Origin: a virus | Strand: one strand, 5' to 3' | IMG/VR virus record: IMGVR_UViG_3300049491_000601 | Coordinates: 1 to 27,322 of that record | Length of the DNA stretch: 27,322 nt | Shown: piece after piece, positions 335 to 27,322 of the stretch | Layout of the letters: each line of letters opens with the position of its first letter | How positions within the stretch are numbered: the stretch's first letter is position 1 | Program-made: the position numbers and the translations under genes | The notes under the pieces: model-generated | What the model saw: the letters and a program-made list of their open reading frames with translations, nothing else | Told to the model about the DNA's origin: nothing | The model's database searches: none

Positions 335-826
335 ATGCAGACACTCGCCATGCAACGCCGGACCGTCCGCCAGGTCCGGGGAGAGATCGGGGCCACGTTC
401 GAGCCGGACGTGATGGTTCCGGAGCAGTTCGCCGGCCAGAACCGCCGCCAGGACGTGCGGACGCCCGAGCAGCGGCTCCAATACGGCGTGCTCGAGAACG
501 CGATGGACGAGCTCCGGATGCTCGCGGGCCGCGTGCGGTCCATTCGCTTCGGGACGGCCGAGGCTGCCGCCGAGCAGCGGTCCCGCCTCCAGGCCCGGTT
601 CGACGAGACGTGCGCCTGGTTCGCCGACGAGGACGACGCGCACCCGTTCACGTTCCTCCGCATCTGCGAGTCGCTGGGGATCGACGCCAGCTACTTCCGC
701 CGCGGGCTCCGGGAGCGGGACTTCAACCCCGAGAAGATCGTCGGCTCGTTCGAGCGGACGGTCGGCAAGGTGGCCTCGGGGCGGTTGCCGCGGGCGACGG
801 GGCCGAAGTGGGAGCGGTCGGCGTGA
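335..826 (+). CDS. Conserved-looking phage protein of unknown function (163 aa)
   Basis: I chose ATG 335 because of the strong Shine-Dalgarno before it; ATG 290 would add 15 residues and overlap the previous gene. The protein is soluble and charged. A middle helical region (about residues 50-95) holds many Arg and Glu residues. The C-terminal third contains a His-Pro-Phe-Thr-Phe segment, a Cys-Glu-Ser-Leu-Gly-Ile motif and then Tyr-Phe-Arg-Arg-Gly-Leu, which resembles a short helix-turn-helix (about residues 108-130). It lies just before the replication initiator and overlaps it by four bases (GTGA), so a role in early DNA metabolism or its control is plausible. No family is assigned. Confidence 0.72.
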   Translation: MQTLAMQRRTVRQVRGEIGATFEPDVMVPEQFAGQNRRQDVRTPEQRLQYGVLENAMDELRMLAGRVRSIRFGTAEAAAEQRSRLQARFDETCAWFADEDDAHPFTFLRICESLGIDASYFRRGLRERDFNPEKIVGSFERTVGKVASGRLPRATGPKWERSA

Positions 827-1611
827 AGCGCGGCACGCCTGAACATCCGAAGACGCGACGGCTCGCACGTCGGCTGAATCTCGAGACGTGGGGCGCAGTC
901 GGCGTGCTGGAGAGTCTCTGGCATTGGGCCGCGAAATTCGCGCGACGCGGTGACATTGGGCGGCATGACGACGCGGACATCGCCGAGGGGATCGGCTGGC
1001 GCGGTGACCCCGCCACGCTGATCGAGGCGCTGATCGCCGAGCGGTGGATCGACGCTAACGACACGTATCGGCTCGTCATTCACGACTGGCACATTCACGC
1101 GGACGACGCGGTCAAGAAGACGCTCGAGCGTGCGGGGGAAACCTTCGCGACAGGGGAGAACCCGCGTCGCGACGCCGTCGAGCCACCGTCGCGACGTCAG
1201 GGAGACAAAGTTTCCCTCGCGCGTGGCAGAGGCAAGGGCAAAGGCAAGGCTCTGGCAGAGGCTTCTACGGCGAGCGGGTTCGATCGCTTCTGGGCGGCGT
1301 ATCCCCGCCGCGTGAAGAAGCCCGACGCCCTCAAGGCGTTCGGGAAGCTCGCGCCGGACGTTCCCCTGGTCGACGCGATGGTCGCGGCGATCGAGGCGCA
1401 GAAGTCCTGGCCGCAGTGGCAGCGCGACGACGGGCTGTTCATCCCGTACCCGGCGAGCTGGCTGAACGGCCGCGGCTGGGAGGACGAGGCGCCGGAGACG
1501 CGGCCGGCGCTCCTGACGCCGCGGGGGCAGACCACGGCGGCGGCGGCGCGGGCGTGGCTCGACCGCCAGCAACTCGAACCGACGGCCACGGCCGTCCCGA
1601 AGCTCGCATGA
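823..1611 (+). CDS. Phage replication initiator (winged-helix, lambda O-like role)
   Basis: 262 residues from GTG 823, which overlaps the previous stop (GTGA). The N-terminal part (about 1-100) looks like the winged-helix domain of phage replisome organisers, with helices rich in Arg and Trp and an Asp-Trp-His segment at 88-90. A basic low-complexity hinge (about 110-150) includes a Gly-Lys-rich run. The C-terminal region (about 153-222) carries the block shared by many phage replication proteins: Phe-Trp-Ala-Ala-Tyr-Pro-Arg at 156-162 and Pro-Ala-Ser-Trp-Leu-Asn-Gly-Arg-Gly-Trp at 210-219. The next gene looks like a helicase loader, giving an initiator-loader pair. The hinge-coding DNA carries three 22-bp repeats that could be the origin it binds. 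Confidence 0.8.
   Translation: MKRGTPEHPKTRRLARRLNLETWGAVGVLESLWHWAAKFARRGDIGRHDDADIAEGIGWRGDPATLIEALIAERWIDANDTYRLVIHDWHIHADDAVKKTLERAGETFATGENPRRDAVEPPSRRQGDKVSLARGRGKGKGKALAEASTASGFDRFWAAYPRRVKKPDALKAFGKLAPDVPLVDAMVAAIEAQKSWPQWQRDDGLFIPYPASWLNGRGWEDEAPETRPALLTPRGQTTAAAARAWLDRQQLEPTATAVPKLA
1141..1206 (+). repeat. Three 22-bp direct repeats (candidate origin iterons)
   Basis: TCGCGAC recurs at 1145-1151, 1167-1173 and 1189-1195, each exactly 22 bases apart. Aligned as 22-base units (1141-1162, 1163-1184, 1185-1206), the copies match at about 13-15 of 22 positions pairwise by hand count. Copies two and three contain the palindrome CGTCGCGACG (1165-1174 and 1187-1196). Because 22 is not a multiple of three, each copy is read in a different frame, so the repeat is not a by-product of a repeated peptide. 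A short AT-richer patch (about 1205-1213) follows. Lambdoid phages carry their origin iterons inside the initiator gene in the same way. Confidence 0.5.
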
Positions 1612-2805: not shown

Positions 2806-3077
2806 CCGACCTGCGCCCCGATCCCGTCCGCTGGGCCGCCGTCGTGGATACGCTGGTCGCCACCCGCATCGAACTCGGCATGGCGCTGGCACGGGCCCGC
2901 GTGGAGGTGCGCGAGTATCCGGCGGGCACGGTGCTGGTCTGCCGGGTGCGGGATGACCTGGCCCCGCTGCTGCGAGACGGGCGCGAGGATTACAGCCCCG
3001 TCGTGATTGCGGCCTGCGCGGCCGTGGGGATCGCGGTGGACGACGTGGCCTATGTCGAGGCGGAGACGGGCCGATGA
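2802..3077 (+). CDS. Small hypothetical protein (91 aa)
   Basis: 91 residues from ATG 2802, overlapping the previous stop (ATGA) and itself overlapped by the next gene (3074). It appears to be a compact soluble alpha/beta protein: an N-terminal helix rich in Val, Ala and Arg, a strand-like Gly-Thr-Val-Leu-Val-Cys-Arg-Val, an acidic middle, then Ala/Val-rich and acidic segments at the C-terminus. No motif was recognised. The coupled overlaps on both sides and the matching codon use support translation. Function unknown. Confidence 0.65.
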   Translation: MTDLRPDPVRWAAVVDTLVATRIELGMALARARVEVREYPAGTVLVCRVRDDLAPLLRDGREDYSPVVIAACAAVGIAVDDVAYVEAETGR

Positions 3078-3982
3078 CTTTCGCTCTGAAGAATCCCAAA
3101 GCGGCGAGTGATGCCGGGCGGCCCGTGGGTCAGTCGGGGATGGGAAACCCGTATCTCCTCGACCGACCTGCATCCATTGCGCTGTCGGGCGGGCGCTCGT
3201 CAGCGTTTATGCTGCGCAAAATTATCGACGCCTTCGGTGGCACGTTGCCAGACGACGTGCGGCCATTTTTCGGTAACACGGGGAAGGAGGACGAGAGCGC
3301 GCTCAAGTTCCTGCGTGACATCGAGCGACACTGGTCCGTTGTGGTCACGATGCTGGAATATCGCCCGGGGTTCACATTCGAGGTTGTGAACTACGATACG
3401 GCAAGTCGCGAGGGCCAGCCGTTTGAGGCGATCTGCCGAGACCGCGGCTACCTTCCGAATAGGATCAACCGCTTCTGCTCCTCGGAACTGAAATTCCGGA
3501 CGACATATCGCTACGTCACGGAGGTGCTCGGGTGGGAGTCGTACACGAGCGCCATCGGTTTTAGGGCCGATGAACCGGGCCGAGTGGCAAAACTCAAGGG
3601 CGACCGTGCGGCCGAGGATTGCGTCGCGCCGATGTATCGTGCGGGGCACTCGATCCGTGACGTGCGCGCGTTCTGGCGTGCGCAACCGTTTGATCTGGAA
3701 CTCCCAGAGAATTGGGACGGGTGGGGCAACTGCGATGGCTGTTTCCTCAAATCGCAGTGGAAACTCGAGCGGATCGCGACGCTGCAGCCGGAGCGCCTAG
3801 AGTGGTGGGCGAAGCAAGAGGCGACGCTCTTTAGCCCCGAGCAGGAACACCGGACGTTCCGCACGCTTGATGATCGGCCGCCGTATCGCGAGTTAATCGC
3901 GACGGGACGGCGACTGGCTGGACAAGGGAAACTGCCGTTCGGAACCGTCGGCGATGAGGACACATGCCATTGCACGGACTAA
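3074..3982 (+). CDS. PAPS-reductase-like PP-loop (ATP pyrophosphatase) protein
   Basis: 302 residues from ATG 3074 (ATGA overlap). The PP-loop Ser-Gly-Gly-Arg-Ser-Ser is at 38-43. Asn-Thr-Gly-Lys-Glu (68-72) lies where family members carry an Asn-Thr-Gly substrate-side loop. Cys-Ser-Ser-Glu-Leu-Lys is at 135-140. A Cys pair sits in Asn-Cys-Asp-Gly-Cys-Phe-Leu-Lys (219-226), and a final Cys-His-Cys lies at 298-300. The family adenylates or sulfurates substrates: CysH reduces PAPS, DndC acts in DNA phosphorothioation. Phage members mostly lack an assigned substrate. The extra cysteines could hold an iron-sulfur cluster. No DndA, D or E partner is nearby, so a nucleotide or DNA-modifying role is only inference. 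GC is a little lower than in neighbours. Confidence 0.8.
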   Translation: MTFALKNPKAASDAGRPVGQSGMGNPYLLDRPASIALSGGRSSAFMLRKIIDAFGGTLPDDVRPFFGNTGKEDESALKFLRDIERHWSVVVTMLEYRPGFTFEVVNYDTASREGQPFEAICRDRGYLPNRINRFCSSELKFRTTYRYVTEVLGWESYTSAIGFRADEPGRVAKLKGDRAAEDCVAPMYRAGHSIRDVRAFWRAQPFDLELPENWDGWGNCDGCFLKSQWKLERIATLQPERLEWWAKQEATLFSPEQEHRTFRTLDDRPPYRELIATGRRLAGQGKLPFGTVGDEDTCHCTD

Positions 3983-4545: not shown

Positions 4546-5132
4546 CCGATCGCAGCGTCGAGGAGATCCGGCATCTCCTGGTGGACGTCCGCGACGAGAG
4601 CGAGGAGTCGCACTGGAAGGCCGGCGCGCTCCTCTGCGAGCTGTTCGCGGCGAGCGCCCGTGAAGCGCCGAAGCACATGACGCGGCAGGATCTTCGGCAC
4701 CGCCGCGCCGAACTGCTCCAGGGCATCGCGGGCCTATGGGGCGACTCGCCGTCCCGCATCGTCCAGTTGGCGCAGGTGTACGCGGCGCTGGGCGAGGTGC
4801 GGGACCGGACGCATGTCTGGACGTGGCATCGCGCGGTCCATCTCGCGGCGAAGCGGACGGGGAAGCAACCGCTGACGATGCTCGACGAGGCGGTAGCCGA
4901 TGGCCTCACGGTGCCAGAGCTCAACCGGCTGGGAGCCAAGCCGAAGCCCGGGCACGGCGCGGCGTTGAGTAGCCGATGCGCGGGGTGCGGCTCGCGGGTG
5001 CAGTACGTCTGCGAGGGCGAGGTGGGCACGAAGCTCCGCGGGACGGCGGTGCCGTGCGGCGCGTGTATCGGCCTCGCGCGTCGCGAAGGAAAGCCCGACA
5101 GCGAAGTCGGCGTGCTCGGGGTCATGGAATAG
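4542..5132 (+). CDS. Zinc-ribbon-containing protein, probably DNA-related
   Basis: 196 residues from ATG 4542 (ATGA overlap with the nuclease). The first 140 residues are helical and charged, with a Trp-rich patch (Val-Trp-Thr-Trp-His-Arg). Near the C-terminus two Cys pairs, Cys-Ala-Gly-Cys (about 148-151) and Cys-Gly-Ala-Cys (about 175-178), flank a Gly-rich strand region, as in a treble-clef or zinc-ribbon fold. Sequestered Cys158 is extra. The chain then ends in an acidic tail. The stop TAG is immediately followed by the next ATG. It may bind DNA or regulate the operon. No named family was recognised. Confidence 0.65.
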   Translation: MTDRSVEEIRHLLVDVRDESEESHWKAGALLCELFAASAREAPKHMTRQDLRHRRAELLQGIAGLWGDSPSRIVQLAQVYAALGEVRDRTHVWTWHRAVHLAAKRTGKQPLTMLDEAVADGLTVPELNRLGAKPKPGHGAALSSRCAGCGSRVQYVCEGEVGTKLRGTAVPCGACIGLARREGKPDSEVGVLGVME

Positions 5133-5360
5133 ATGCGCACGCTCCTCGCCGCAATCCTCTTCGCCACAGCGACCGCCAACGCCGCGACGCAAACGACCGA
5201 CGTGCGCGCCAGGTTCGCCATTCCGACGGCCGCGTTCACGTTCGGGGTTCGCTACGACAACGGGGAGGAAACGACGATCCCCGTCCCGGCAGACACCGGC
5301 ATGCTCGTCGTCGTCAATACGGGAACGATCGTGACGCTCCGGAAGATCTCGGAGCCATGA
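5133..5360 (+). CDS. Small secreted protein (75 aa)
   Basis: 75 residues from ATG 5133, directly after the previous stop (TAGATG). Residues 1-17 form a clear Sec signal peptide: Arg2, a hydrophobic core Leu-Leu-Ala-Ala-Ile-Leu-Phe-Ala, and Ala-x-Ala before a predicted cut near residue 17. The mature part (about 58 residues) has alternating hydrophobic and polar residues typical of a small beta protein, with no cysteine. It is the first of nine exported proteins in the window and lies 20 bases before the tRNA gene. It could be a periplasmic or surface factor. Function unknown. Confidence 0.65.
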   Translation: MRTLLAAILFATATANAATQTTDVRARFAIPTAAFTFGVRYDNGEETTIPVPADTGMLVVVNTGTIVTLRKISEP

Positions 5361-5380
5361 AGGGTGGCGGTGGCATGAGT

Positions 5381-5453
5381 GCCCTCGTAGCTCAGACGGC
5401 AGAGCAGCGTCATCGTAAGGCGACGGTCGGCGGTTCGATTCCGTCCGCGGGCT
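5381..5453 (+). tRNA. tRNA-Thr, anticodon CGU
   Basis: The 73 bases fold as a standard cloverleaf. The acceptor stem is GCCCTCG with CGCGGGC (one U-C mismatch at pair 5-68). The D-stem is GCTC/GAGC with an eight-base loop. The anticodon stem is GCGTC/GGCGA (the outer pair mismatched), with loop ATCGTAA placing the anticodon at 5414-5416. The variable loop has five bases. The T-stem is GGCGG/CCGTC with loop TTCGATT. U33, A37 and the TTCGA core are all present. CCA is not encoded. CGU reads ACG (Thr), a dominant codon in this GC-rich phage. The gene ends 14 bases before a peptidase gene that is very rich in ACG. A phage-borne tRNA topping up a heavily used codon is the simplest reading. Confidence 0.9.
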
Positions 5454-5457
5454 TTTT

Positions 5458-5464
5458 GGGAGGT
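5458..5464 (+). promoter_or_regulatory. Shine-Dalgarno fixing the GTG 5468 start
   Basis: GGGAGGT ends three bases before GTG 5468, just downstream of the tRNA. It marks the true start of the metallopeptidase, whose open frame otherwise continues back through the tRNA into the previous gene. Confidence 0.65.
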
Positions 5465-5467
5465 AGA

Positions 5468-7978
5468 GTGGGACGACTTCTGGCGGCGGTGTTCTTGGCG
5501 GCGGCGACCTCTGCCCACGCGATGCACGTTGGCGAGGACTGCCCGACGTTGCCACGGGCGTCGATCAGCCCGCCGGTCATCGTGACGACGGCGAAGGCGC
5601 AGCGGGCGCTGGACAACGTGCGGAAGCATCTCGACCGCACCGGCAAGGCCCCGTTCGGACAGCTCAAGAAGGCGCTCGCCGACTACATGCCCGAAGCCGC
5701 GTGGGTCTGTCGGAACGATCCCGACGCCTGTCTCGATGTGCTCCTCTCGCAGGCGGAGGCGGCACCGCTGGCGAGCGATCCGTGCGCGCCGCGGTACGGG
5801 ACGTTGACGGGCGACGTCATGCAGGTGCGCTCGTTGCCGGAGCAGCCGGGCGGCGTCGGCTACACGGCGCTCGTGCTCCACGGGCTCGACGAGGACGTGC
5901 GGCTCGTCGTGCCGAGCGGGCAGCGCGTGAAGAAGGGGAAGCGGACGCTCTCCGGCGTGGCGCTTGGCAAGGGCACGTTCGTCGTCTCCGACGGCGGCAC
6001 CACGACGGTGGCCGCGAACGCGACGGCGCCGGGACTCGATGCGGTGACGTGGCCGACCACGGGACGCATCCGGGAAGTCACGCAGGTGGCAACCTACGAC
6101 AACGCGCCGACCACCGTGACGGACCAGGCGATCCTCGACAACGCGGCGTGGAATCGCCGCTACTACGCCTCGACCAGCTACGGGCTCGTCGATCTCCAGG
6201 CGACGCAGCTTCCGCGCGTGACGCTCCCCGGCCCCGCGCCGTGCGATGCGTTCTCATCGTTCCGGAGTCTGCAAGCGTCCATCGAAGCGACCACCGACAT
6301 CTGCCAGGTCGAGCAGGTCCAGATGTTCGGCAAGTACCCGTGCGGCTGGGGCGGCAATGCCGCGGTCGGCCCGACGTGCTGGCGCTCGCTCAAGGATCCG
6401 ACAAAGACGTGCTGCTTCGGCATCGCGCAGAATCAGGACGACGTCGGCTGGATGGGGGTCGCGGCGCACGAGCGAGGTCACGCGCTCGGGCTGCTCCACG
6501 GCAACATGATGCAACTGCCGAGTCGGTTTCCCCTTGGGGGCCGCTACGCCGCGACGAAGTTCGTCGAGTATGGCCGGAACCTGACGCTGCTCGGGAACTC
6601 GTCGAGCAACGGGCCCTTCGGCGTGCTCGCGCGGTTCTATCTCGGGTGGCTGCCCGTGGGCCCGACGGGTGTGCTTGTGACGCCCGCGGTGGGCACGTAC
6701 ACGCTCGCGCCGATCTCGCAGCAGGCGGCGGCGCTCCGCGGGCTCGTCTGGCAGGAGAGCGGGGCGGTCTACGCGGGGCTCGAGTATCGCGCCGACGTGA
6801 ACGAGTTCGAGCACCAGAACGTCGCCGGCAAGCGGATGAACTGCCTGCACCTGACGTCGAGCTCCGACAACGGCGCCCCGGAAGAGGACGAGCACGACGT
6901 CGTCGCCGGCGAGCCGTGTCTCGCGGTGGGCGAGACCGTGACCACGCCGAGCGGGTGGCGCTTCCAGGTAACGGCACCCGACACCGTGGCGATCCAGGCG
7001 CAAGGCACGCCCCTTCCCTCGCCGACGTTCACCATCACGACGCCGATCAACGGGAGCATCGTGTCGGGCCAGGTGGCGCTCGACGGCACGGTGAGCGGCG
7101 GCATCTGGCGCGTCCAGTGGTCGTACAACGGCGGGGGCGCCTGGCGTGCGTTGCCGCCGAAGCTCGCGGCGCCGTGGGGCACGACGTTCGACTCAACGCT
7201 CGTCGCGGACGGGCGCGTGAGCCTGCTCGGGGCCGCATGCAACGGGGCCGGCATGTGCGCCTACGGGCTCGTGACCGTGCTCACGCAGAACGGGATTGCG
7301 ACGACGACCACGGCACCCCCGACCACGACGACGACGCTGCCGAACGTCACCTATGCGGTGATCGAGCACCTGCCGAATCCCTCGGTGGTGGGCGAGCCCG
7401 TCGTGTTCACCGTCCGGGCGAAGAAGAACGACCAGTTTGTGCCGGTGTCGAGCCTGCACATCAACCTCTCGGATGCCGCCAATGCGTCCTGCGTCGCCGC
7501 GACACGGGTCGACGCCAACACGTTGCAATGCACGAAGGCCTACTCGGCCGGGTGTCTCCCGTGCTTCTCCAGCGGCTTCGCATTCGACGGCACGGCATGG
7601 ACCGATATCGTCAACATCCCGCACAACGTGGTGACGGCGACGGTCACGACCACGAGCGGCGTGCCGACCACCACGGGGGCTCCGACGACGACGGTGGCGC
7701 CGACCACGAGCACCAGCACGACGCGCCCGCCGACCACGACCACGGCGACGACGAGTAGCAGTAGCACGACGACGGTGCAGCCGAGCACGAGTAGTACGAG
7801 CACGCGCCCGACCACCAGCACGACGCGCGTGCCGACGACCACCACGCTCCGCCCGACCACGACGACCACGACGGTGGTGCCGTGTCGCGCACGGGGCACG
7901 TCGTGCGTGCTGAACGGGCAGAAGCATCCCGAGCTGTGCTGCTCGCGGCGCTGCGGAGGGGCACGGAAATGCCGCTGA
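5468..7978 (+). CDS. Large secreted zinc metallopeptidase, gametolysin (M11)-like, with Ig-like and Thr-rich regions
   Basis: 836 residues from GTG 5468; upstream frame would cross the tRNA. Residues 1-18 are a signal peptide (Ala-His-Ala end). The zinc site His334-Glu335-Arg-Gly-His338-x-x-Gly341-x-x-His344 is an exact HExxHxxGxxH metzincin motif. The following Val-Glu-Tyr-Gly and Leu-Gly-Trp-Leu landmarks match gametolysin-like bacterial peptidases, but the Met-turn Met is replaced by Leu (Leu374-Leu375-Gly). An Ig-like beta domain (about 518-605), a short Thr/Pro linker, a second beta domain (about 620-720), a long Thr/Ser/Pro linker (about 723-802) and a Cys-rich C-terminus follow. It probably acts outside the cytoplasm on envelope or surface proteins; whether it is part of the virion is unknown. 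Confidence 0.75.
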   Translation: MGRLLAAVFLAAATSAHAMHVGEDCPTLPRASISPPVIVTTAKAQRALDNVRKHLDRTGKAPFGQLKKALADYMPEAAWVCRNDPDACLDVLLSQAEAAPLASDPCAPRYGTLTGDVMQVRSLPEQPGGVGYTALVLHGLDEDVRLVVPSGQRVKKGKRTLSGVALGKGTFVVSDGGTTTVAANATAPGLDAVTWPTTGRIREVTQVATYDNAPTTVTDQAILDNAAWNRRYYASTSYGLVDLQATQLPRVTLPGPAPCDAFSSFRSLQASIEATTDICQVEQVQMFGKYPCGWGGNAAVGPTCWRSLKDPTKTCCFGIAQNQDDVGWMGVAAHERGHALGLLHGNMMQLPSRFPLGGRYAATKFVEYGRNLTLLGNSSSNGPFGVLARFYLGWLPVGPTGVLVTPAVGTYTLAPISQQAAALRGLVWQESGAVYAGLEYRADVNEFEHQNVAGKRMNCLHLTSSSDNGAPEEDEHDVVAGEPCLAVGETVTTPSGWRFQVTAPDTVAIQAQGTPLPSPTFTITTPINGSIVSGQVALDGTVSGGIWRVQWSYNGGGAWRALPPKLAAPWGTTFDSTLVADGRVSLLGAACNGAGMCAYGLVTVLTQNGIATTTTAPPTTTTTLPNVTYAVIEHLPNPSVVGEPVVFTVRAKKNDQFVPVSSLHINLSDAANASCVAATRVDANTLQCTKAYSAGCLPCFSSGFAFDGTAWTDIVNIPHNVVTATVTTTSGVPTTTGAPTTTVAPTTSTSTTRPPTTTTATTSSSSTTTVQPSTSSTSTRPTTSTTRVPTTTTLRPTTTTTTVVPCRARGTSCVLNGQKHPELCCSRRCGGARKCR
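7634..7873 (+). repeat. Low-complexity Thr codon tract (ACG/ACC)
   Basis: This part of the metallopeptidase gene encodes the long Thr/Ser/Pro linker. By hand count it holds about 29 ACG and 13 ACC codons and no ACA or ACT. Linkers of this kind are flexible and often O-glycosylated. The DNA is prone to slippage, so its length may vary between related phages. Confidence 0.7.
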
Positions 7979-10811: not shown

Positions 10812-11086
10812 AGGGAACCCCGCGCTACGTCTTATCGAATCCGGAAGGCCCCATCGCGATCATCTACGGGCGCACTACTATCACTCCGTCGCCCCTGATG
10901 GCGGTGGGTGATCCGGCCGAACCCTCGCCCCTCGAAGCCCGCAAACTCGTCGAGAACGACGTGGCCCGCATTCTCGCCTGGGACGACGCCCACCAGGCGC
11001 TCCTATTCGACCTCATGGTCAAGGCCGGATGGTCCCGCGATCGCGCGACGACCGTCCTCAGAAAGAAGGGATGGCACCTCGGATGA
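10808..11086 (+). CDS. Small helical protein of unknown function (92 aa)
   Basis: 92 residues from GTG 10808 (GTGA overlap). The N-terminal 40 residues contain a strand-like Ala-Ile-Ile-Tyr-Gly-Arg-Thr-Thr-Ile-Thr and Pro-rich turns. The C-terminal half is helical: Ala-Arg-Lys-Leu-Val-Glu, Leu-Phe-Asp-Leu-Met-Val-Lys-Ala-Gly-Trp-Ser, ending in a basic Arg-Lys-Lys-Gly-Trp-His. No Cys and no signal peptide. It separates two exported proteins but overlaps both of their genes. It might be cytosolic partner or chaperone for the following fibre-like protein, but nothing shows this. Confidence 0.55.
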   Translation: MKGTPRYVLSNPEGPIAIIYGRTTITPSPLMAVGDPAEPSPLEARKLVENDVARILAWDDAHQALLFDLMVKAGWSRDRATTVLRKKGWHLG

Positions 11087-14000
11087 TCTCGCTACGTGAC
11101 CGCCTGCTCCTGGGCGTGTGCCTCCTCCTGTGCGCGTCGCTCGGGGCGTCGGCGTCTCCGACAGGACATATCCCGACGAGCCATGGTCCCCAGGCGCACG
11201 CCCCCAGGCATGCCGTGCCCTCGGGGTATTGGATAGACAGTGCGAATGGGACGGATACGGCGACCTGCGGAAAATCCATCGGGTCGCCTTGCCAGACCTA
11301 CTACTACTGGTTGAACTCCGGCTGCTCGCCGGCGAGCGGGTGCAAGAATGACGGCATTCCGCATAGTGGGGGTGACACCGTCTACTTCCGTGCGGGGACG
11401 TATCACGGTGACGACAACCCCACGGCCGGCTCGCGGACCTACATCGCGATTCCGTGGGACGGTACGGCAACCGATCCGGTCACGTATGCCTGCTACGACA
11501 CGCCAGGGACGTGCGTCGTCGATCTCGACGGCGTAACGGGACTCGGGGCTGGGTCGGGCATGATGGCGGTCGGGGCGGCGATCAACGTCAAGACCAACAG
11601 CGCGGACGCTGCGGCGTACATCACGATCCGGGGGTTCAAGTTCGCGCCGGTCTCTGGCACGGGCGTGCGCTCGGCCATCGTGGACATCGGCAACGCGAGC
11701 ACGCACCACATTCTCGTCGATCAGGTGAGTATTGATCCGACGACGCTCGCCAACTTCCTCGGGTACTCGATGCGGTTCAGTACCACGGCCGCCTACACGA
11801 CAGTGAAGCATTCCTCTGCGCTCGCCACGCTCGCTGCTGACAAGGGTGGCCCGAGCTTCGATCGCAGCCCGAACATGGCGCTCGTCGGGAACGATCTCGG
11901 GGCTGCAAACGACACTACGAACAACGACTGCCACAACCTCCTCGGGATCGTGGTCGGGCTCTCTGACAGCAACGTGTGCCGCGACAACGCCGACGGGCTC
12001 GACTCCGGCCAGAACGCCGACACGCCCGCGCTAGACCGCCTCGTCATCCGCTACAACCTCATCCGAAACATCGGCGGGAACGTAGCCGGGTCGCGCTGCA
12101 TCCCGATGTCCGGGAACGGCGCCACCGGCCTCATCGGCCAGAACGCGATCTACAAGAACCTCTGCTACCAGACGCAGGCCGAGACGAACGCCTCGGGGAT
12201 CGTCAACTACGGCTCCTCCCAAAAGACGAGCATCTGGTACAACACCGTCTTCCTCGCGGGGGTGCCGGAGTTCCGCCTCTACACCGTCAGCGGCCAGAAC
12301 GTCATCAACAAACGCCAGACGATTCGCCACAACATTTTTGACACGGTGGCGACGAGTGGCGATGTAGTCGCGCTCTACTCCGATGGTGCGGCGACGGCGT
12401 GCCCGTCGGGCGACCACTGCCCGCTGGTGGGCAATGATTTCTATTCCCCCGAGCACAGCAGCGCCACCTGCGTCACCTGGCAACCGAGCGACACGGGCGC
12501 GACGACCTACACGTGCGCGCAGACCGCGACGACGTTCAACTCGATCAACAGCAACAGCGGCAACCAGAACACGAATCCGGTGTTCGCCGCACGAGCCGGC
12601 GATGGCTTCACGGCGGCGGCAAGCGATCTCCGGTTGCAGGCGTCGAGTCCCCTGATTGATCAGGGAGCGCCGTTCTGTCGCACGGTGGGAGCGGGCAGCG
12701 GGGCCACGACCCTCACCGTGACCTGCCAAGGGGCTACGAATGATCCGCGCTACTTCTTCCCGCAGCCGGGCGACTACTATGGCGTGACGAATGCGGATTG
12801 CGTCGGCTACGGCGCGCGCGCGGTGGACGGGGTCGCGGCGGGGTGCTTCGACATTCAGATCGAAGGCTGTGGCATCCGCCAGGTCGTGAGCGAGACGAGT
12901 AGCACGATCACCATCGACAACGCGTGTGCATGGGCCGACGGCGCCATGGTGCACGTGCCCTGGAACGGTGCCGGCCCGGATCTCGGGGCGCTCGAGGCGG
13001 CCAATGGCGCGACGACGACCACGAGCTCGGTGACAACCACCTCAAGCACGACCTCAACCAGTACGAGCAGTTCAACCACGACCAGCACGAGCACGTCCGT
13101 CACCACGACGACCTCGACGAGTTCGACGACGACGACGCTCGCGGCGACGATCCAAGTCCTCACGGTCGGGGCGCCGACGGCACAGTCGAATAGTGCCACG
13201 AGCTACATGCCCATTTCGGGTACGGCAGCAACGCCGGGGGCAACGGAAGCCCTCATGGAATCCATCATGGCGGCCCCGGGTACGGTCGGGGGCCTTCGCG
13301 CGCTCGTCGGTACGGTGCCGGGAGGGTCCGCGACGTGGGCGCTCACGCTCATGCTGAACGGCTCTCCCAGCGCGTTGACCTGCACGATCACGGCGGCGGC
13401 GACCACCTGCCAGGATGGCAGCAATGGGCACAACGTGACGGTCGCGGCGGGTGATCGCGCCTACTGGAAGATCGTGCCGAGCGGGACACCGGCGTCGTCG
13501 CCCATGCGGATCTCGGTCCTGTGGAAACCCACGACCTCCGATCAGACGGTCTGGCCGGTCACGACCTCGGGGTCGGTCGCCTCCGCAAACGGCTTCTTCA
13601 ACTTCTTCTCCGGCACGAATGCGACAACAGACAACACGGCGTCGCGCATCGTCGTGCCCATCCCCGGCACGCTCTCGAATCTCTACACCTGGTGCACCAA
13701 TGCGGTGGCGGCGAGTGCCACGCGCGTCTGGACGGTCAACCAGAACGGAGCGGGGTCGGCGCTCACCTGCACACAGACCGCGGGGTCGACGACGTGCAAT
13801 GACACCAACGGCGGGCATGCGGTGAGCCTCGCGGCTGGCGATGTCGTGAACCTGGCCTATACCTTCACGGGGACGCCAGGCTCTTCGGGGTGCGCCATGG
13901 GCGCGGTCTTCGTGCCGTCCACCTCGGGGCTGTATATGGTGGGCGGCCTCGGCACGACGGCGACAACGCCGACGACCGCGACAGACGTCTATGCTGCGCT

Positions 14001-14325
14001 CTCGCATCAGCAATTTGGCTTGACCTCCACTCGGGACGGCCTCGTGCAGCGCATCACGCAGGCGTCCACGATGAAGAACATCTATGTGCTCCTCGATGGG
14101 GCGACCGGCGCAAGTTCCACGCTCGACGTCACGCTGGAAAGCGGGGCGAGCTCGACGGCGCTCACGTGTTCAATGACGAACGGCTCGACGTGCAACCTGA
14201 CGACCGACGTCACGGTTGCCGACGATGCGCTGCTGAACACGCTCTTCCATCATTCTGGTAGTGCGGGGACGTCGCGCCGAGCGAACGTCTCCTATTCCGC
14301 CCTGTTTACGGGCACGTTCCCATGA
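11083..14325 (+). CDS. Secreted right-handed beta-helix protein with Thr-rich linker and three C-terminal repeats
   Basis: 1080 residues from ATG 11083 (ATGA overlap). Residues 1-24 are a signal peptide (Ser-Leu-Gly-Ala-Ser-Ala end). About 40-640 reads as a pectate-lyase-like parallel beta-helix, with repeated Ile-Arg-Gly-Phe, Ile-Leu-Val-Asp-Gln and Leu-Val-Ile-Arg-Tyr-Asn rungs and scattered Cys. A Thr/Ser linker spans 643-687. Three related beta domains follow (about 688-822, 825-949, 950-1080), each with an Ala-Leu-Thr-Cys core and a second Cys a few residues later. The architecture resembles phage tailspikes or polysaccharide-binding enzymes. A signal peptide on such a protein is unusual. 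Catalytic residues of a lyase or hydrolase were not identified, so enzymatic activity is unproven. Confidence 0.72.
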   Translation: MISLRDRLLLGVCLLLCASLGASASPTGHIPTSHGPQAHAPRHAVPSGYWIDSANGTDTATCGKSIGSPCQTYYYWLNSGCSPASGCKNDGIPHSGGDTVYFRAGTYHGDDNPTAGSRTYIAIPWDGTATDPVTYACYDTPGTCVVDLDGVTGLGAGSGMMAVGAAINVKTNSADAAAYITIRGFKFAPVSGTGVRSAIVDIGNASTHHILVDQVSIDPTTLANFLGYSMRFSTTAAYTTVKHSSALATLAADKGGPSFDRSPNMALVGNDLGAANDTTNNDCHNLLGIVVGLSDSNVCRDNADGLDSGQNADTPALDRLVIRYNLIRNIGGNVAGSRCIPMSGNGATGLIGQNAIYKNLCYQTQAETNASGIVNYGSSQKTSIWYNTVFLAGVPEFRLYTVSGQNVINKRQTIRHNIFDTVATSGDVVALYSDGAATACPSGDHCPLVGNDFYSPEHSSATCVTWQPSDTGATTYTCAQTATTFNSINSNSGNQNTNPVFAARAGDGFTAAASDLRLQASSPLIDQGAPFCRTVGAGSGATTLTVTCQGATNDPRYFFPQPGDYYGVTNADCVGYGARAVDGVAAGCFDIQIEGCGIRQVVSETSSTITIDNACAWADGAMVHVPWNGAGPDLGALEAANGATTTTSSVTTTSSTTSTSTSSSTTTSTSTSVTTTTSTSSTTTTLAATIQVLTVGAPTAQSNSATSYMPISGTAATPGATEALMESIMAAPGTVGGLRALVGTVPGGSATWALTLMLNGSPSALTCTITAAATTCQDGSNGHNVTVAAGDRAYWKIVPSGTPASSPMRISVLWKPTTSDQTVWPVTTSGSVASANGFFNFFSGTNATTDNTASRIVVPIPGTLSNLYTWCTNAVAASATRVWTVNQNGAGSALTCTQTAGSTTCNDTNGGHAVSLAAGDVVNLAYTFTGTPGSSGCAMGAVFVPSTSGLYMVGGLGTTATTPTTATDVYAALSHQQFGLTSTRDGLVQRITQASTMKNIYVLLDGATGASSTLDVTLESGASSTALTCSMTNGSTCNLTTDVTVADDALLNTLFHHSGSAGTSRRANVSYSALFTGTFP
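13009..13145 (+). repeat. Low-complexity Thr/Ser codon tract
   Basis: These bases encode the Thr/Ser linker (residues 643-687) between the beta-helix and C-terminal domains. Thr is spelled mainly ACG and ACC with some ACA-free stretches, echoing the linker in the metallopeptidase gene. The similarity is compositional; I cannot show recent exchange between the two. Confidence 0.6.
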
Positions 14326-14361: not shown

Positions 14362-14769
14362 ATGCGATACGGATGGATGGTGGTAGGACTCGCGGGAGTG
14401 CTCGCGGTGCTGCGGGCACAGCCGGCGGCGGCGGCCACGCTGACGGCTATGGCGGGCACGCTCAGTGAATGCACCTCGGGGTGTGCCACGGGGGCCTCAA
14501 CGGATGTGATCGAGGTCAGTCAGGCGCGACCGATCAAACTCGCCATCGACTACGTCACGATGGGGAGCAATACGACGATCCAGGTGGAACGCTCCATCGA
14601 CGAGGGAGCGACGTGGTCCCTGGTCGCGGGCACGGCAGGCTCGGCGGTCGCGGCCTACGAGATCGACGCGCCCATCGGGCGCTATCGGATCAACCGGACG
14701 ACCTGTGGCGCGAGCTGTGCGTGGAAGGTGGTCTATCGGCGGACGGGGCCATTCGGCTACGGAGATTGA
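14362..14769 (+). CDS. Small secreted beta-rich protein (135 aa)
   Basis: 135 residues from ATG 14362 with GGAGG at 14349-14353, one of the clearer ribosome sites. Residues 1-24 are a signal peptide ending in Pro-Ala-Ala-Ala. The mature part (about 111 residues) alternates hydrophobic and polar residues as in a beta sandwich. It has Cys pairs near its start (Glu-Cys-Thr-Ser-Gly-Cys) and end (Thr-Thr-Cys-Gly-Ala-Ser-Cys-Ala). The segment Arg-Ser-Ile-Asp-Glu-Gly-Ala-Thr-Trp-Ser recalls Asp-box or BNR-like turns, but there is only one. It follows the beta-helix gene and closes the second secreted block. Confidence 0.65.
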   Translation: MRYGWMVVGLAGVLAVLRAQPAAAATLTAMAGTLSECTSGCATGASTDVIEVSQARPIKLAIDYVTMGSNTTIQVERSIDEGATWSLVAGTAGSAVAAYEIDAPIGRYRINRTTCGASCAWKVVYRRTGPFGYGD

Positions 14770-14772
14770 TCG

Positions 14773-14826
14773 GTGAAGGACGGAAAGCACCGCGATCTCA
14801 GCCCGCGGCAGCGAGGTCTACTGTGA
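14773..14826 (+). CDS. 17-residue ORF, possible leader peptide or gene remnant
   Basis: GTG 14773 opens a 17-codon frame ending in TGA 14824-14826. GGAG at 14761-14764 is well placed eight bases upstream. The stop overlaps GTG 14823, an in-frame possible start of the next gene, giving the GTGA arrangement common here. The peptide is basic and includes Leu-Ser-Pro-Arg-Gln-Arg, which resembles the N-terminus of some small terminases or HTH proteins. It may be a leader that couples translation, a truncated gene, or a chance frame. It is too short to decide. Confidence 0.3.
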   Translation: MKDGKHRDLSPRQRGLL

Positions 14827-14846
14827 GAACGCATGAGCAGGCGAAC

Positions 14847-15407
14847 ATGACCACGATTCGCGACCGGGTGGTCGCGCTGCGCCGCGTGCGGGCGAGCGAG
14901 CTCATCCCGAACCCGAAGAACTGGCGCCGCCATCCGGCCGAGCAGCGTGACGCGATGTCGGGCGTGCTGCGGGAGATCGGCTATGCCGGGGCGCTCCTCG
15001 CGCGCGAGACGCCCGAGGGGCTCATGCTGATCGACGGGCACCTGCGGGCCGAGACGACCCCGGACCAGGAGGTGCCCGTCCTGGTGCTCGACGTCGACGA
15101 ACGCGAGGCGGATGTGCTCCTTGCGACCGTGGACCCGCTGGCGGCAATGGCGGAGCGAGACGACGCGGCCCTACGTGCGCTGCTGGCCGGCGTACAAGCC
15201 GACGACGCTGCCGTGCGGGCCCCACTGGATGGGTTGGCGGGCGACGTGGTCCTTGAGCCGTTCATGGGATCGGGCACGACGCTGATTGCGTGCGAGAGGC
15301 TGCGGCGTCGGTGCTATGGCATCGAATTGAAGCCCGAATATTGTGACGTCATCGTCACGCGCTGGGAGCAGTTCACCGGCAAGACCGCCACCAGGGAGTC
15401 CGCATGA
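14847..15407 (+). CDS. ParB-like domain fused to a DNA methyltransferase C-terminus lacking the catalytic motif (remnant)
   Basis: 186 residues from ATG 14847; GTG 14823 would add eight residues. Residues 10-70 match the ParB/Srx-like domain in phage ParB-methyltransferases: Asn-Pro-Lys-Asn-Trp-Arg (22-27) and Leu-Ile-Asp-Gly-His-Leu-Arg-Ala-Glu (61-69). Residues 133-180 match the end of the same enzymes: Leu-Glu-Pro-Phe-Met-Gly-Ser-Gly-Thr-Thr (136-145, the SAM-binding motif), then Cys-Tyr-Gly-Ile-Glu-Leu and Arg-Trp-Glu-Gln-Phe-Thr-Gly. Full-length relatives carry a long central part with the catalytic Asp-Pro-Pro-Tyr motif and target recognition. That part is absent, and the two ends join in frame near residue 130. 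It probably cannot methylate DNA; the ParB part may still bind or nick DNA. Confidence 0.7.
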   Translation: MTTIRDRVVALRRVRASELIPNPKNWRRHPAEQRDAMSGVLREIGYAGALLARETPEGLMLIDGHLRAETTPDQEVPVLVLDVDEREADVLLATVDPLAAMAERDDAALRALLAGVQADDAAVRAPLDGLAGDVVLEPFMGSGTTLIACERLRRRCYGIELKPEYCDVIVTRWEQFTGKTATRESA

Positions 15408-23115: not shown

Positions 23116-23134
23116 GAGCCCAATGGCGTGGCTC
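23116..23134 (+). promoter_or_regulatory. Hairpin enclosing the start codon of the fibre gene
   Basis: GAGCC (23116-23120) pairs with GGCTC (23130-23134), leaving a nine-base loop that contains ATG 23123-23125. The same purine-rich bases just upstream would be the ribosome site. If it forms, it would slow initiation until ribosomes finishing the previous gene (stop 23111-23113) open it. Short stems are frequent by chance in GC-rich DNA. Confidence 0.3.
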
Positions 23135-26100
23135 ATCCGAACTGCGCTGTTCGCCATCCTCGTGGTGGCGAACAGCGCGTGGGCGCTCAACGGGGTCGAC
23201 GCGGGCGACGTCCGCTCGGCCCCTTCACGGTGGTCGCTGACCGGCGACATCACCCCCGCGCAGATCACGAGCACGCAGAACGACTACGCGCCGACCGATT
23301 TCTCGACCTCACAGCCGATCGACACGGCGGCGGTGCTTCGGCTCGACGCAGACGCCGCGCGCTCCATCACCGGGATCAAGTGTACCACGGCGGCCAACTG
23401 TGGCGCGTCGAGCGACGGCCGCATGCTGATCGTGGTGAACATCACCACGGCGTTCAACATCACCCTGGAAGCCGACGACAGCGGCTCGAACGCCGCGAAC
23501 CGCTTCGGCTTCAACGGCATCGACCGCATCATTGCTCCGAAGGAAGCCGTGACGCTGTGGTACGACAGCACGTCGTCGCGATGGCGTGCGCTCGTTCCGG
23601 CGTCGGGCTCGGGCACGGTCACGAGCGTGTCGGCGACGGCGCCCGCTGCGGGCTTCACGATCGCCGGCTCGCCGGTCACGACGTCGGGCGGGTTCACGTT
23701 CACGCTGGCGGATGACCTTGCCGCGCTGGAAGCCATGAGCGGCACAGGGCTCGTCGCGCGCACGGCATCGAACACCTACGCGCAGCGGACGATCACCTGT
23801 ACGCCGCCGCTGCTTTGCACGAACGGGAGCGGTGTCTCCGGCAACCCAACGATCGCGGACGAGTCTGTTAAGGACATCCGAGCGAACGGCGCGCTCTGCG
23901 ACGCGACGGTGACGGCGGCAACGGCCGTTGCGACCGGGACGAACGATACGACGAACATCCAGGCAGCAATTGACGCGGCGGCTCCGGGGATGACGGTTCT
24001 CGTCCCGTCAGGGAAAAAGTGCCTGCTCGGATCGAAGATCACGGTCAAGAACGGCGTCACGCTGAAATGCGAGGCGGGCGCGGGCTTCGTGCTTTCGACG
24101 AAGCAATGCAACGCCGGCAACTTCGTCGGCTCGGAGTGTGCGGCCGATGCCGACTGTTATAACGGCGGCTCGTCTACCACGGGACTGTGTACCGGCACGG
24201 AGTTCGCGCCGACTGGCGGTGTGGCCTATCCGGTGATCGACGCGGCATCGTCGGGCGATCGACGCGATATGTCGGTGGTCGGGTGCAGCATCCAGACCAT
24301 GCAGCTCTCCCCCTACTACACCTGCACCGCGGGGACGCGCTCTGGTAAGACTTGCACGACCAACGACACAAACGCGAACACCGGATGCCCGTCGGCGGGC
24401 ACCTGTACGGGCGCCCCGCTCTGGCCGTCCGGCCCCGGTAAGATCAACGTCATTGATCTATCCAATGGCGTGGCCGGGAGCCAGGCGGTTCGCGAGAACC
24501 GGATTCTTGATCTGCGCGTGACTGACCAGGCGATCAAGGTTCTCGGAATCGCGGCGACGCCCGCGATCGTCACGGCGAATATCCTCGGGGGGCCTACGGA
24601 CGGTATCTGCTGTGGGCCGCTCGCCACGGGGTGCGCCACCACGCCTCCGGGGTCCAATGGCTCGTCGTGCGAGCTTAACTACATCGCCGGCCCGCCGACC
24701 GAAACGCGGACGGACGGAGTCGTGTGCAGCGGCTATTGCACCGTATACGAAAACGGTATTCGGGCTGGTCGGTACGGGGTGAGCGCCAGCACGGGCGCGA
24801 TCGTGCGTGGCAACGTCATCACACTCGCGCAGGTCGCCGCGACGGCGGCCGGCGTCAACGCCACCGCGAATGCGAGGATTGACTCCAACACGATCGACAT
24901 GGCGACGACCGGAGGTGGCACGACGGCCACCGGCGTGATCGTGACCACCGGCAGTCTGGTCAAGGGCAACATCATCACGCTCGGCAACTCGATCACGACG
25001 CCGACCGGCATCACGCCCGGAGCGTCTTCGGTCGTGGCCGATAACGCGATCGCGCTGGGGACGGGCGCGACGACAAGCGTGGGGATCAATGCGCCGGATT
25101 CTTCGCATATCTACAACAACAAAATCACCATGTCGTCGGCGTCGTCGTCGGCGAACGGGATTAAGCAGGTCTCCGGGTCCGCCATTAACGCCCACCACAA
25201 CAACATCACGATGTCGAGCAGCGACACGAAGACCGTGGGCATCCAGCTCGGCGCGGGCCAGGTGCAGTCGCGCATAGATAACAACCTGATCCTTGCGTAC
25301 ACCTGCTTGTATGGCGGCGGCGATAGCGCGGCTGGTGGTGTCACGACCAATCTCACATTTTCCCACAATCGTTGTTACACGGGGAGCGGGCCGAAGATCG
25401 TCGTCACGGGTGGTGCCGGCTGGAAGATCCTCGGGAATTATCTCGCCTGGGGCACCGCGGGCGCCCCCATCATCCAGGTGGGGGATAATACCCGGCTGGT
25501 CTCGTACTATACCGATCATCTCGAAATTGCCGACAACACAATCTTTAGCGAGGCCGGCGCGACCTCCGGCGTCGGGTTCCTCGACATCGGGAAGCGGTGC
25601 AACGGTGGAACGAAGGTCGGTCAGGTCTGTACGAACAGCAACACAACGGATTGCCCTGGCGCGACGTGCGGAACCTGCTGCGCGGTCCAAACCCACGGCG
25701 GCATGCGGATCGAAAATAACGAACTGCTGGCCTGCCCGATCGGTCTCGACTTCTCCGCGCTCACCTCTAGCGCGAACACGACCATCAACGGTGGGATCGT
25801 CGGCGGTAATTTTCTGTCCGCTAACACGGTCGGCATCAAGATGCCCACGACCACGGGGAGCATCGCGGGGCTCGGCATTCTCGGAAACAACTTCCAGGGC
25901 ACGACCGATTCCCTACAAAATTGGTCCTGGGCGTTTGGTTCGTACGATTCGACGGCACCGCTTCAGCCGGGCGACGAGTCGCCGACGTTCGCGTTTTCGG
26001 GTGTGAGCGGCACGACGCCTGCTATCTATCAGCTCGCCGTGCATGACGGGACGAGTGACAGCACGACGAAGATCGCGCCCGCTGGTACGACGTTGCCGAT

Positions 26101-27322
26101 CCTCGGCGTCTATCTGTCCGCGACGGCGGCGGGCGGGACCGCACGGCTCGCGGTGAACGGGATTACGAAATGCACGATCGACGGCACGGTGACGCGTGGG
26201 GATCGCCTCTGCGTGTCGGCGTCGACCGCTGGACGAGCGGTCTCCTGCACCGGGGCTCAGGATGGCTTTGCCGTCGCGATGGCGTCGGGGGTCGCTGCCG
26301 ACAACGTGCTCTGCGCGCTGGAGCCGTCCGCGCCGAACATCATGAGCAGCTACGGGACGGTCCCGGCCTACCGTGCGACGGGCACGATCGGCACCGGCAC
26401 CTCCACGGTCGGCTCCGGACAGGGTCTTGGGCTTCCGACCGGACACGTCACGAACGACCTGTTGATCCTCACGATTCAGTCGCAGGGCGGCGAGGCGGGG
26501 ACATGCCCGGCAGGCTACACGCAGATCGGGCCGCAGAAGGGGACCGGGACCGGCGCGCTCTCGACGCGGCTGACGGCCTGCTGGAAGCGCGACGGTGGCG
26601 CGGAGTCCGTGCCCACGGTGGCCGACGCGGGCGACCACACGACGGCGTCGATCTCAGCCTTCTCCGGCGTGGTGACGACCGGCGATCCATTCGTCTATCT
26701 CGGTGGCGGCGTGAAAGCGACGGCGAGCACGTCGGTTGCGGCTCCTGGTGGCTCCACCTCCCAGGACAACACGCTCGTCGTCATCATGGCGGCGCATGGC
26801 ATAGACTCGGCGTCGGCGCAGTACACGTCGCCGCTGACGAACGCGGACCTCGCCTCGATCACCGAGCGCCAGGACGAAGGCAGCGTATCGGGCACGGGCG
26901 GTGGTTTGACGCTCACGACCGGCACGAAGCTGATCGCGGGCAGCATTGGCACGACGACGGGCACCGTGGGCTCGGCAGCGGAGGCCTACGCCACGATCGC
27001 GCTGCTTCCCGTGGCATCGGTTCAGCCATCGAATGCGTCGCGTGGGCCCGACGTACAGACCTTCACGTCACCGGGCGGAAGCCAGACGTGGAACAAGCCG
27101 ACCGGAGCCCGGCTGGTCGAGATCGTCGCCATCGGTGGTGGTGGTGGTGGTGGCGAGGGACGCTCGGTCGCGACGGCTGCGGGCGGCGGGGGCGGTGGCG
27201 GCGGCGCGTACCAGCGCGTCATCGTGCCGGCAGATCAGCTCCAGTCGACCATGACGGTGACGGTCGGGACCGCTGGTGTCGGCGCTGGCACGCAGTCGGC
27301 GGGCACGGCATCGACCGTCGTC
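23123..27322 (+). CDS. Giant secreted beta-helix tail fibre or spike with polyglycine C-terminal part; 3' end outside the window
   Basis: The frame opens at ATG 23123 and stays open for 1400 codons to the last base, so the protein is truncated by the window. Residues 1-21 are a signal peptide ending Ala-Trp-Ala. Around 272-310 is the Asn-Asp-Thr-Thr-Asn-Ile-Gln-Ala-Ala-Ile-Asp start of pectate-lyase-like spikes, with Val-Leu-Val-Pro-Ser-Gly. Long beta-helix rungs follow to about residue 930. Three Cys modules interrupt it (329-356, 401-428, 826-853). From about 1310 comes Thr-Phe-Thr-Ser-Pro-Gly and Thr-Trp-Asn-Lys-Pro, then runs of seven and eight Gly, as in receptor-binding fibre tips. The likely role is host-surface recognition. 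No lyase active site was identified. Confidence 0.8.
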   Translation, partial: MAWLIRTALFAILVVANSAWALNGVDAGDVRSAPSRWSLTGDITPAQITSTQNDYAPTDFSTSQPIDTAAVLRLDADAARSITGIKCTTAANCGASSDGRMLIVVNITTAFNITLEADDSGSNAANRFGFNGIDRIIAPKEAVTLWYDSTSSRWRALVPASGSGTVTSVSATAPAAGFTIAGSPVTTSGGFTFTLADDLAALEAMSGTGLVARTASNTYAQRTITCTPPLLCTNGSGVSGNPTIADESVKDIRANGALCDATVTAATAVATGTNDTTNIQAAIDAAAPGMTVLVPSGKKCLLGSKITVKNGVTLKCEAGAGFVLSTKQCNAGNFVGSECAADADCYNGGSSTTGLCTGTEFAPTGGVAYPVIDAASSGDRRDMSVVGCSIQTMQLSPYYTCTAGTRSGKTCTTNDTNANTGCPSAGTCTGAPLWPSGPGKINVIDLSNGVAGSQAVRENRILDLRVTDQAIKVLGIAATPAIVTANILGGPTDGICCGPLATGCATTPPGSNGSSCELNYIAGPPTETRTDGVVCSGYCTVYENGIRAGRYGVSASTGAIVRGNVITLAQVAATAAGVNATANARIDSNTIDMATTGGGTTATGVIVTTGSLVKGNIITLGNSITTPTGITPGASSVVADNAIALGTGATTSVGINAPDSSHIYNNKITMSSASSSANGIKQVSGSAINAHHNNITMSSSDTKTVGIQLGAGQVQSRIDNNLILAYTCLYGGGDSAAGGVTTNLTFSHNRCYTGSGPKIVVTGGAGWKILGNYLAWGTAGAPIIQVGDNTRLVSYYTDHLEIADNTIFSEAGATSGVGFLDIGKRCNGGTKVGQVCTNSNTTDCPGATCGTCCAVQTHGGMRIENNELLACPIGLDFSALTSSANTTINGGIVGGNFLSANTVGIKMPTTTGSIAGLGILGNNFQGTTDSLQNWSWAFGSYDSTAPLQPGDESPTFAFSGVSGTTPAIYQLAVHDGTSDSTTKIAPAGTTLPILGVYLSATAAGGTARLAVNGITKCTIDGTVTRGDRLCVSASTAGRAVSCTGAQDGFAVAMASGVAADNVLCALEPSAPNIMSSYGTVPAYRATGTIGTGTSTVGSGQGLGLPTGHVTNDLLILTIQSQGGEAGTCPAGYTQIGPQKGTGTGALSTRLTACWKRDGGAESVPTVADAGDHTTASISAFSGVVTTGDPFVYLGGGVKATASTSVAAPGGSTSQDNTLVVIMAAHGIDSASAQYTSPLTNADLASITERQDEGSVSGTGGGLTLTTGTKLIAGSIGTTTGTVGSAAEAYATIALLPVASVQPSNASRGPDVQTFTSPGGSQTWNKPTGARLVEIVAIGGGGGGGEGRSVATAAGGGGGGGGAYQRVIVPADQLQSTMTVTVGTAGVGAGTQSAGTASTVV

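Follow-up and report, generated by a model that had tools for sequence, protein, structure and literature searches.

The viral DNA analysed here (IMG/VR record IMGVR_UViG_3300049491_000601, positions 1 to 27,322; this whole stretch of 27,322 nucleotides is called the window) carries a replication initiator gene with a series of short, regularly spaced repeats inside its coding sequence. The segment 1144-1206 is very probably the initiator-binding array (iterons) of a replication origin located in that part of the gene which encodes the disordered linker of the protein. This reading is based on three observations: phased boxes are present in most of the related genes, the constraint acts at the level of the DNA, and the sequence of the boxes covaries with the N-terminal domain (N-domain) of the initiator. 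From these sequence comparisons we infer binding of the initiator, strand opening and origin activity.

Repeats in the hinge-coding DNA of the initiator gene

The encoded protein belongs to the replication initiation proteins of PHROG 9474, as indicated by a profile match covering residues 3-99 of the N-domain (E 5.1e-42). Further profile matches were obtained with phrog_270 (E 6e-22) and with the primosomal protein profile phrog_9327 (E 1e-16), and a Pfam scan gave no match for the protein. The AlphaFold2 model of the N-domain contains helices 9-17, 22-39, 50-56 and 63-72, strands 76-79 and 83-86, and helices 89-92 and 95-104, a fold that appears winged-helix-like in the model. No confident PDB match was found for it by sequence or by fold, the top matches being MarR-like regulators with E > 0.3. 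The repeats fall exactly in the DNA coding for the hinge behind this domain (Table 1), where they had been placed by the original prediction, made from the nucleotide sequence of the window alone.

On the + strand the heptamer TCGCGAC occurs at 1145, 1167 and 1189, in steps of exactly 22 bp and in three different codon phases. The 22-mers 1141-1162, 1163-1184 and 1185-1206 match one another at 13, 14 and 15 of 22 positions, and CGTCGCGACG is found at 1165-1174 and 1187-1196. The three copies, the extended similarity between them and the two embedded palindromes were thus all present as originally described. Identity within the repeat was 28/44 at lag 22. It was also raised at lags 11 (27/55) and 33 (16/33), indicating a basic register of 11 bp, which corresponds to one helical turn. 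Single-strand folding of the segment 1140-1265 gave a z value of -2.5, an expected outcome of palindromic repeats.

TCGCGAC is not rare in this DNA, as had been pointed out in the original prediction: it was found 21 times in the window, against 21.7 expected. The exact 22-bp phasing had been taken as the actual signal. No other 7-mer in the window forms a triple with equal steps of 8-40 bp not divisible by three, but at least one such triple also appeared in 4.5% of the dinucleotide shuffles of the whole window and in 3.5% of those made in 1-kb blocks. Compared with synonymous-codon shuffles of the initiator gene, the lag-22 signal had p = 0.0018 and the best of lags 10, 11 and 20-22 had p = 0.0028 at a width of 44 columns, whereas at 33 columns, the setting of the family survey, the p-value of this gene did not fall below 0.01. 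Shuffling had been proposed as a check in the original prediction. Judged from the window alone the case for the repeat is borderline, suggestive and no more, and it is the sequences of the relatives that, in our view, decide whether the array is real.

Table 1. Features of the initiator gene and its repeat array (positions in the window)
Feature	Position	Strand	Basis
Replication initiator gene, 262 aa, GTG start	823..1611	+	PHROG 9474, phrog_270 and phrog_9327 profile matches
N-terminal domain, residues 1-108, helical with two-stranded wing, predicted winged-helix-like	823..1146	+	AlphaFold2 pLDDT 94.9
Helix of residues 95-104, candidate recognition helix	1105..1134	+	Top covariation with phased hinge repeats at residues 99 and 95
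Array of GTCNNGAC-like boxes in 11-bp steps	1144..1195	+	Motif and spacing from relatives
Boxes of the array (matches to motif)	1144 TTCGCGAC (5/6); 1155 degenerate; 1166 GTCGCGAC (6/6); 1177 GTCGAGCC (5/6); 1188 GTCGCGAC (6/6)		
Possible half box	near 1199-1206		
Hinge-coding stretch, residues 109-149, predicted disordered	1147..1269	+	pLDDT 42-53, full-length model
Short GG-every-6-bp tract, reverse-strand counterpart of the CCNNNN tract of relatives, weak	1225..1261	+	
C-terminal domain, residues ~148-222, common to many other phage replication proteins	1264..1488	+	

Helically phased arrays in related genes

Relatives were gathered by N-domain searches and came from viral contigs, Acidobacteriota assemblies and a few cultured phages. 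Set 1 consisted of 66 non-redundant genes, the window gene included, and set 2 of 55 further, previously unused genes. For each lag, identity within the hinge DNA was compared with 300 synonymous-codon shuffles per gene, which keep both the protein and the codon usage. In set 1 the level p<=0.01 was reached by 11 genes at lag 10, 16 at lag 11, nine at lag 20 and 12 at lag 22, with ~0.7 expected; in the control segments (N-domain DNA and gene DNA further downstream) 0-3 genes reached it at any lag. Set 2 gave 13, 18 and 8 genes at lags 10, 11 and 22, and its N-domain control none at the same three lags (the downstream control was limited to set 1). In both sets, the DNA directly behind the N-domain exceeds synonymous-codon shuffles in its periodicity at 10-11, 20-22 and 30-33 bp. 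This excess, together with repeat units whose length is not divisible by three, upholds the original suggestion that selection acts on the DNA. Lags 12, 18 and 24 were likewise raised in the hinges of the relatives because of a second tandem tract (CCNNNN) described below.

An identity of 22/33 at a helical lag was detected anywhere in the gene in 74/123 genes, and 71 of the 74 best segments started between -50 and +300 nt from the end of the N-domain. Relative to flanking DNA, the commonest core, GTCNNGAC, was enriched 15.8-fold in the hinge, and its neighbouring copies were, with few exceptions, 10, 11, 20-22, 30 or 33 bp apart. When the DNA was read directly, most relatives showed repeats behind the N-domain. 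The array types included GTCNNGAC-type and GTACGTAC-type arrays, and the repeat core differed between lineages: three copies of GTCGAGACACT (L028), TGTCGCGACT (L029), TGTCCCGACA (L037), about nine copies of AATTCAACAGA (L039), GGAATTGCAA (L026), CCTCCGGAGGA (L030) and GTGCGCAC (L025). Across lineages the core is variable, and its place and spacing are constant. The comparison with related initiator genes, also proposed in the original prediction, thus revealed hinge repeats with the same helical phasing.

The automatic periodicity test covered six cultured N-domain relatives (Microcystis, Synechococcus, Paenibacillus, Faecalibacterium and Roseburia phages and phage nd4) and was significant in two of them. 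Inspection by eye revealed in the Microcystis phage an 11-bp array of the AACCGTTCA type followed by CCAGAG repeats. In three distant cultured relatives, phage nd4 (L131), Roseburia phage Shimadzu (L132) and Faecalibacterium phage FP_Lagaffe (L133), the hinge contains ~10-bp repeats of the AGAGTAGACAAG type, and the next gene downstream is a DnaC-like or gp38-like replication gene.

When the window was scored for five GTCNNGAC boxes at 11-bp spacing, position 1144 obtained 24 of 30 and was the single best position in 27.3 kb. Synonymous shuffles of the gene gave p = 0.0012 for this score, a somewhat optimistic value because the motif was picked with the window in view. Five-box scoring at spacings of 9, 10 and 12 did not single out the hinge.

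Covariation with the N-domain and alternative explanations

Covariation was tested automatically, by asking for each alignment column whether gene pairs with the same residue shared a phased repeated 6-mer beyond their overall N-domain identity; phylogeny was controlled through pairwise identity only. Among ~100 columns residue 99 (r 0.150, z 8.0), followed by residue 95 (r 0.089, z 6.6), came out on top, both above 0.081, the largest value obtained in 200 permutations. Residues 100 and 103 ranked lower. Control repeats taken from N-domain DNA or downstream DNA did not single out residues 95/99. A mutual-information ranking with manually assigned core classes, which was replaced by the automatic test to avoid hand-picking, listed residues 99, 95, 103 and 100. 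In the model, residues 95, 99 and 103 follow one another at one-turn intervals along one face of the helix 95-104, which precedes the repeats. Such covariation between repeat and residue is as expected if the N-domain binds the repeats, although it is not proof of contact.

Genes with at least two copies of GTCNNGAC encode K99 in 17/22 and R103 in 20/22 cases, and the window protein has both residues. This bears on the possibility that the three TCGCGAC copies of the window arose by chance even though the arrays of the relatives are real. The frequency of equally spaced triples in shuffled DNA and the commonness of the heptamer would be compatible with such an accident, but the copies lie at the array position of the family, contain its commonest core in an 11-bp register and give the best score of the contig, in a gene whose protein carries the same residues as the GTCNNGAC relatives. 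We find a chance origin barely credible.

Equally disfavoured, and highly improbable, is neutral expansion of the linker, in which slippage adds tandem duplications to a fast-evolving disordered segment and the periods have no significance of their own. It is true that the hinge is predicted to be disordered, that its peptide is not conserved, and that slippage could have contributed to the 6-bp and 12-bp repeats in the second tract. Against this reading stand the clustering of the periods at whole helical turns, the retention of units with lengths not divisible by three, the recurrence of one core, GTCNNGAC, among relatives only 50-60% identical, and the covariation of the repeat sequence with residues 95 and 99.

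The repeats could also be bound by the N-domain and serve autoregulation, a transcription roadblock, partition or some other role unrelated to an origin. The same binding evidence would then appear, and partition sites and operators, too, typically have phased arrays to which small DNA-binding proteins bind. Yet the array is within coding sequence, ~320 bp downstream of the start codon rather than at a promoter, replication initiation is the annotated function of the gene family, and the arrays inside the initiator genes of lambda and SPP1 are origins. We consider a non-origin role unlikely.

Several observations weigh against identification of the array as an origin. Box 1155 is degenerate, and the window array is among the weaker ones when compared with those of the relatives, about one-third of which are without significant periodicity at the thresholds used. 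The link with K99/R103 reached significance within the KR subgroup (p 4e-5) but was not significant among the other genes (p 0.15). Residues 99 and 95 still ranked at the top, with a weaker signal, in a control with non-helical spacing, probably due to the many copies per array. Profile searches recognised no helicase or helicase loader near the array. Finally, the vicinity of the hinge has no conserved AT-rich stretch: in 123 genes the mean GC was 0.56-0.58 behind the N-domain and ~0.60 elsewhere.

The last result leaves unsupported the AT-richer patch that the original prediction had noted after the repeats. The lowest GC content of a 20-bp segment was 45%, at 1194, and 615 segments of the contig are equally low. 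An AT-rich unwinding element found no support in the window or in the family. GC skew was uninformative: around 1.1 kb it showed no switch that could be interpreted, and the site is at the very edge of the contig, a partial viral record of 27.3 kb.

Second tract, neighbouring genes and comparison with known origins

In 50/66 hinges (CC or GG counted) the boxes are followed by a tandem tract in which CC recurs every 6 bp. The density of such tracts was 2.9 per kb in the hinge and 0.26 outside. The tract often encodes PEPEPE, which taken alone could be explained as a plain protein linker, and synonymous shuffles are unable to test CCNNNN in the proline frame. Other readings also occur: CCAGAGCCAGAGCC is translated as SQSQSQ (L066, L215), CCCATACCCATA as THTHTH (L036), and in L028 the tract is on the reverse strand and gives ALALAL. 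In these and other genes it is located ~+90 to +260 nt from HDW, with a unit of 6 bp, sometimes 7 bp. Among the 123 genes, 69 have it in the proline frame and 18 in one of the other two frames; nine (several short) have it on the G strand, and 27 lack it. The use of all three frames and of the other strand suggests, without proving, that the tract has a function as DNA, and it may be a second origin element. Its counterpart in the window (Table 1) was not above synonymous shuffles (pR 1.00).

In the mechanism that we propose, the N-domain would bind GTCNNGAC boxes one helical turn apart, several copies lining up on one face of the DNA, and the resulting complex would bend and open nearby DNA. 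The C-terminal domain with partner proteins would recruit the host or phage helicase, and the CCNNNN-type tract of many relatives would be a possible site of strand opening or of helicase/primase entry. A wider proposal, tentative and rather doubtful at present, is that of a large undescribed class of phage origins, two-part and encoded in the linker of the initiator gene. Here one-turn palindromic boxes would be combined with a frame-independent tandem CCNNNN tract replacing the AT-rich unwinding element, and the box sequence would be set by the helix behind the wing (code at residues 95, 99, 100 and 103).

The C-terminal part of the initiator is common to other phage primosomal and replication proteins, and a search for close DNA relatives of this phage among cultured phages gave C-domain fragments only. 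The next gene downstream (1608-2081) had no Pfam match and weakly matched a PHROG of unknown function. Elsewhere in the window, 3074-3982 is a gene of the phosphoadenosine-phosphosulfate-reductase family (phrog_424, E 2e-40) in the early phage region, and a single open reading frame (ORF) at 14469-15407 combines two parts, one ParB-like (residues ~130-246) and the other of DNA methyltransferase type (residues ~257-309). Three very long ORFs were without PHROG match: 4976-7978 (1000 aa), 11029-14325 (1098 aa) and 23123-27322 (1400+ aa). The first of them, the one covered by the Pfam scan, had no Pfam match either. At its end (7647-7873) there is a cluster of imperfect tandem repeats with 18- and 24-bp units containing CGACCAC; since these are multiples of three, they are probably peptide repeats.

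The array shares two traits with iteron origins: multiple direct repeats within the coding sequence of the initiator, in the same place in relatives, and phasing with the helix (22/11 bp in the window; 10, 11, 20-22, 30 and 33 bp in relatives). The ori of lambda, a precedent, is located within the O gene (PMC7466680) and consists of ~19-bp units bound by O dimers next to a 40-bp A+T-rich opening region (PMC5043065). The window family resembles it in the position of the repeats in the middle of the initiator gene and in near-palindromic units, binding being predicted here. It differs in having 8-bp cores at 10-11-bp steps instead of inverted-repeat iterons of ~19 bp, and in having no conserved A+T-rich stretch. 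The analogy drawn with lambda iterons in the original prediction therefore holds for the placement in the initiator gene but not for the unit length. In SPP1, oriL lies within gene 38 and its direct repeats are bound by the initiator gp38 (PMC6316719). Direct repeats within the initiator's own gene are common to both, whereas oriL has an AT-rich unwinding element. In the SPP1-type layout a gp38 homologue is adjoined by the helicase loader gp39, a position occupied in the window by the gene with the weak PHROG match only.

Helical phasing of initiator sites is known from plasmid iterons (PMC5043065). The arrays described here are in phase with the DNA helix as in the iteron plasmids P1, RK2, R6K and pSC101, although the window protein comes from a phage family without Pfam match. 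Plasmid iterons are generally outside the rep gene and longer (17-22 bp). DnaA-trio or basal unwinding elements also place a short tandem repeat beside duplex initiator sites, as in the CCNNNN layout of the relatives; the unit of the trio is 3 bp, that of the relatives 6 bp and GC-containing, and any single-strand role of the CCNNNN tract is speculative. With lambda and SPP1 the family has the placement in common, and it would work in a similar way; it differs from them in the unit length, the tight one-turn packing, the lineage-specific cores and the absence of a conserved AT-rich element. No description of this origin type was found in open-access papers, most of the subscription literature being outside that search.

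The hinge-coding DNA would be a gene segment under two demands, in which the DNA and not the peptide is conserved, and it raises the question of how the strands would separate at an origin of this kind when no AT-rich stretch is conserved. If the identification is true, a replication origin has been placed from sequence alone in a family of mostly uncultured phages. The family would then be a natural experiment, with dozens of initiators having different but matched sites, from which a recognition code could be read and tested.
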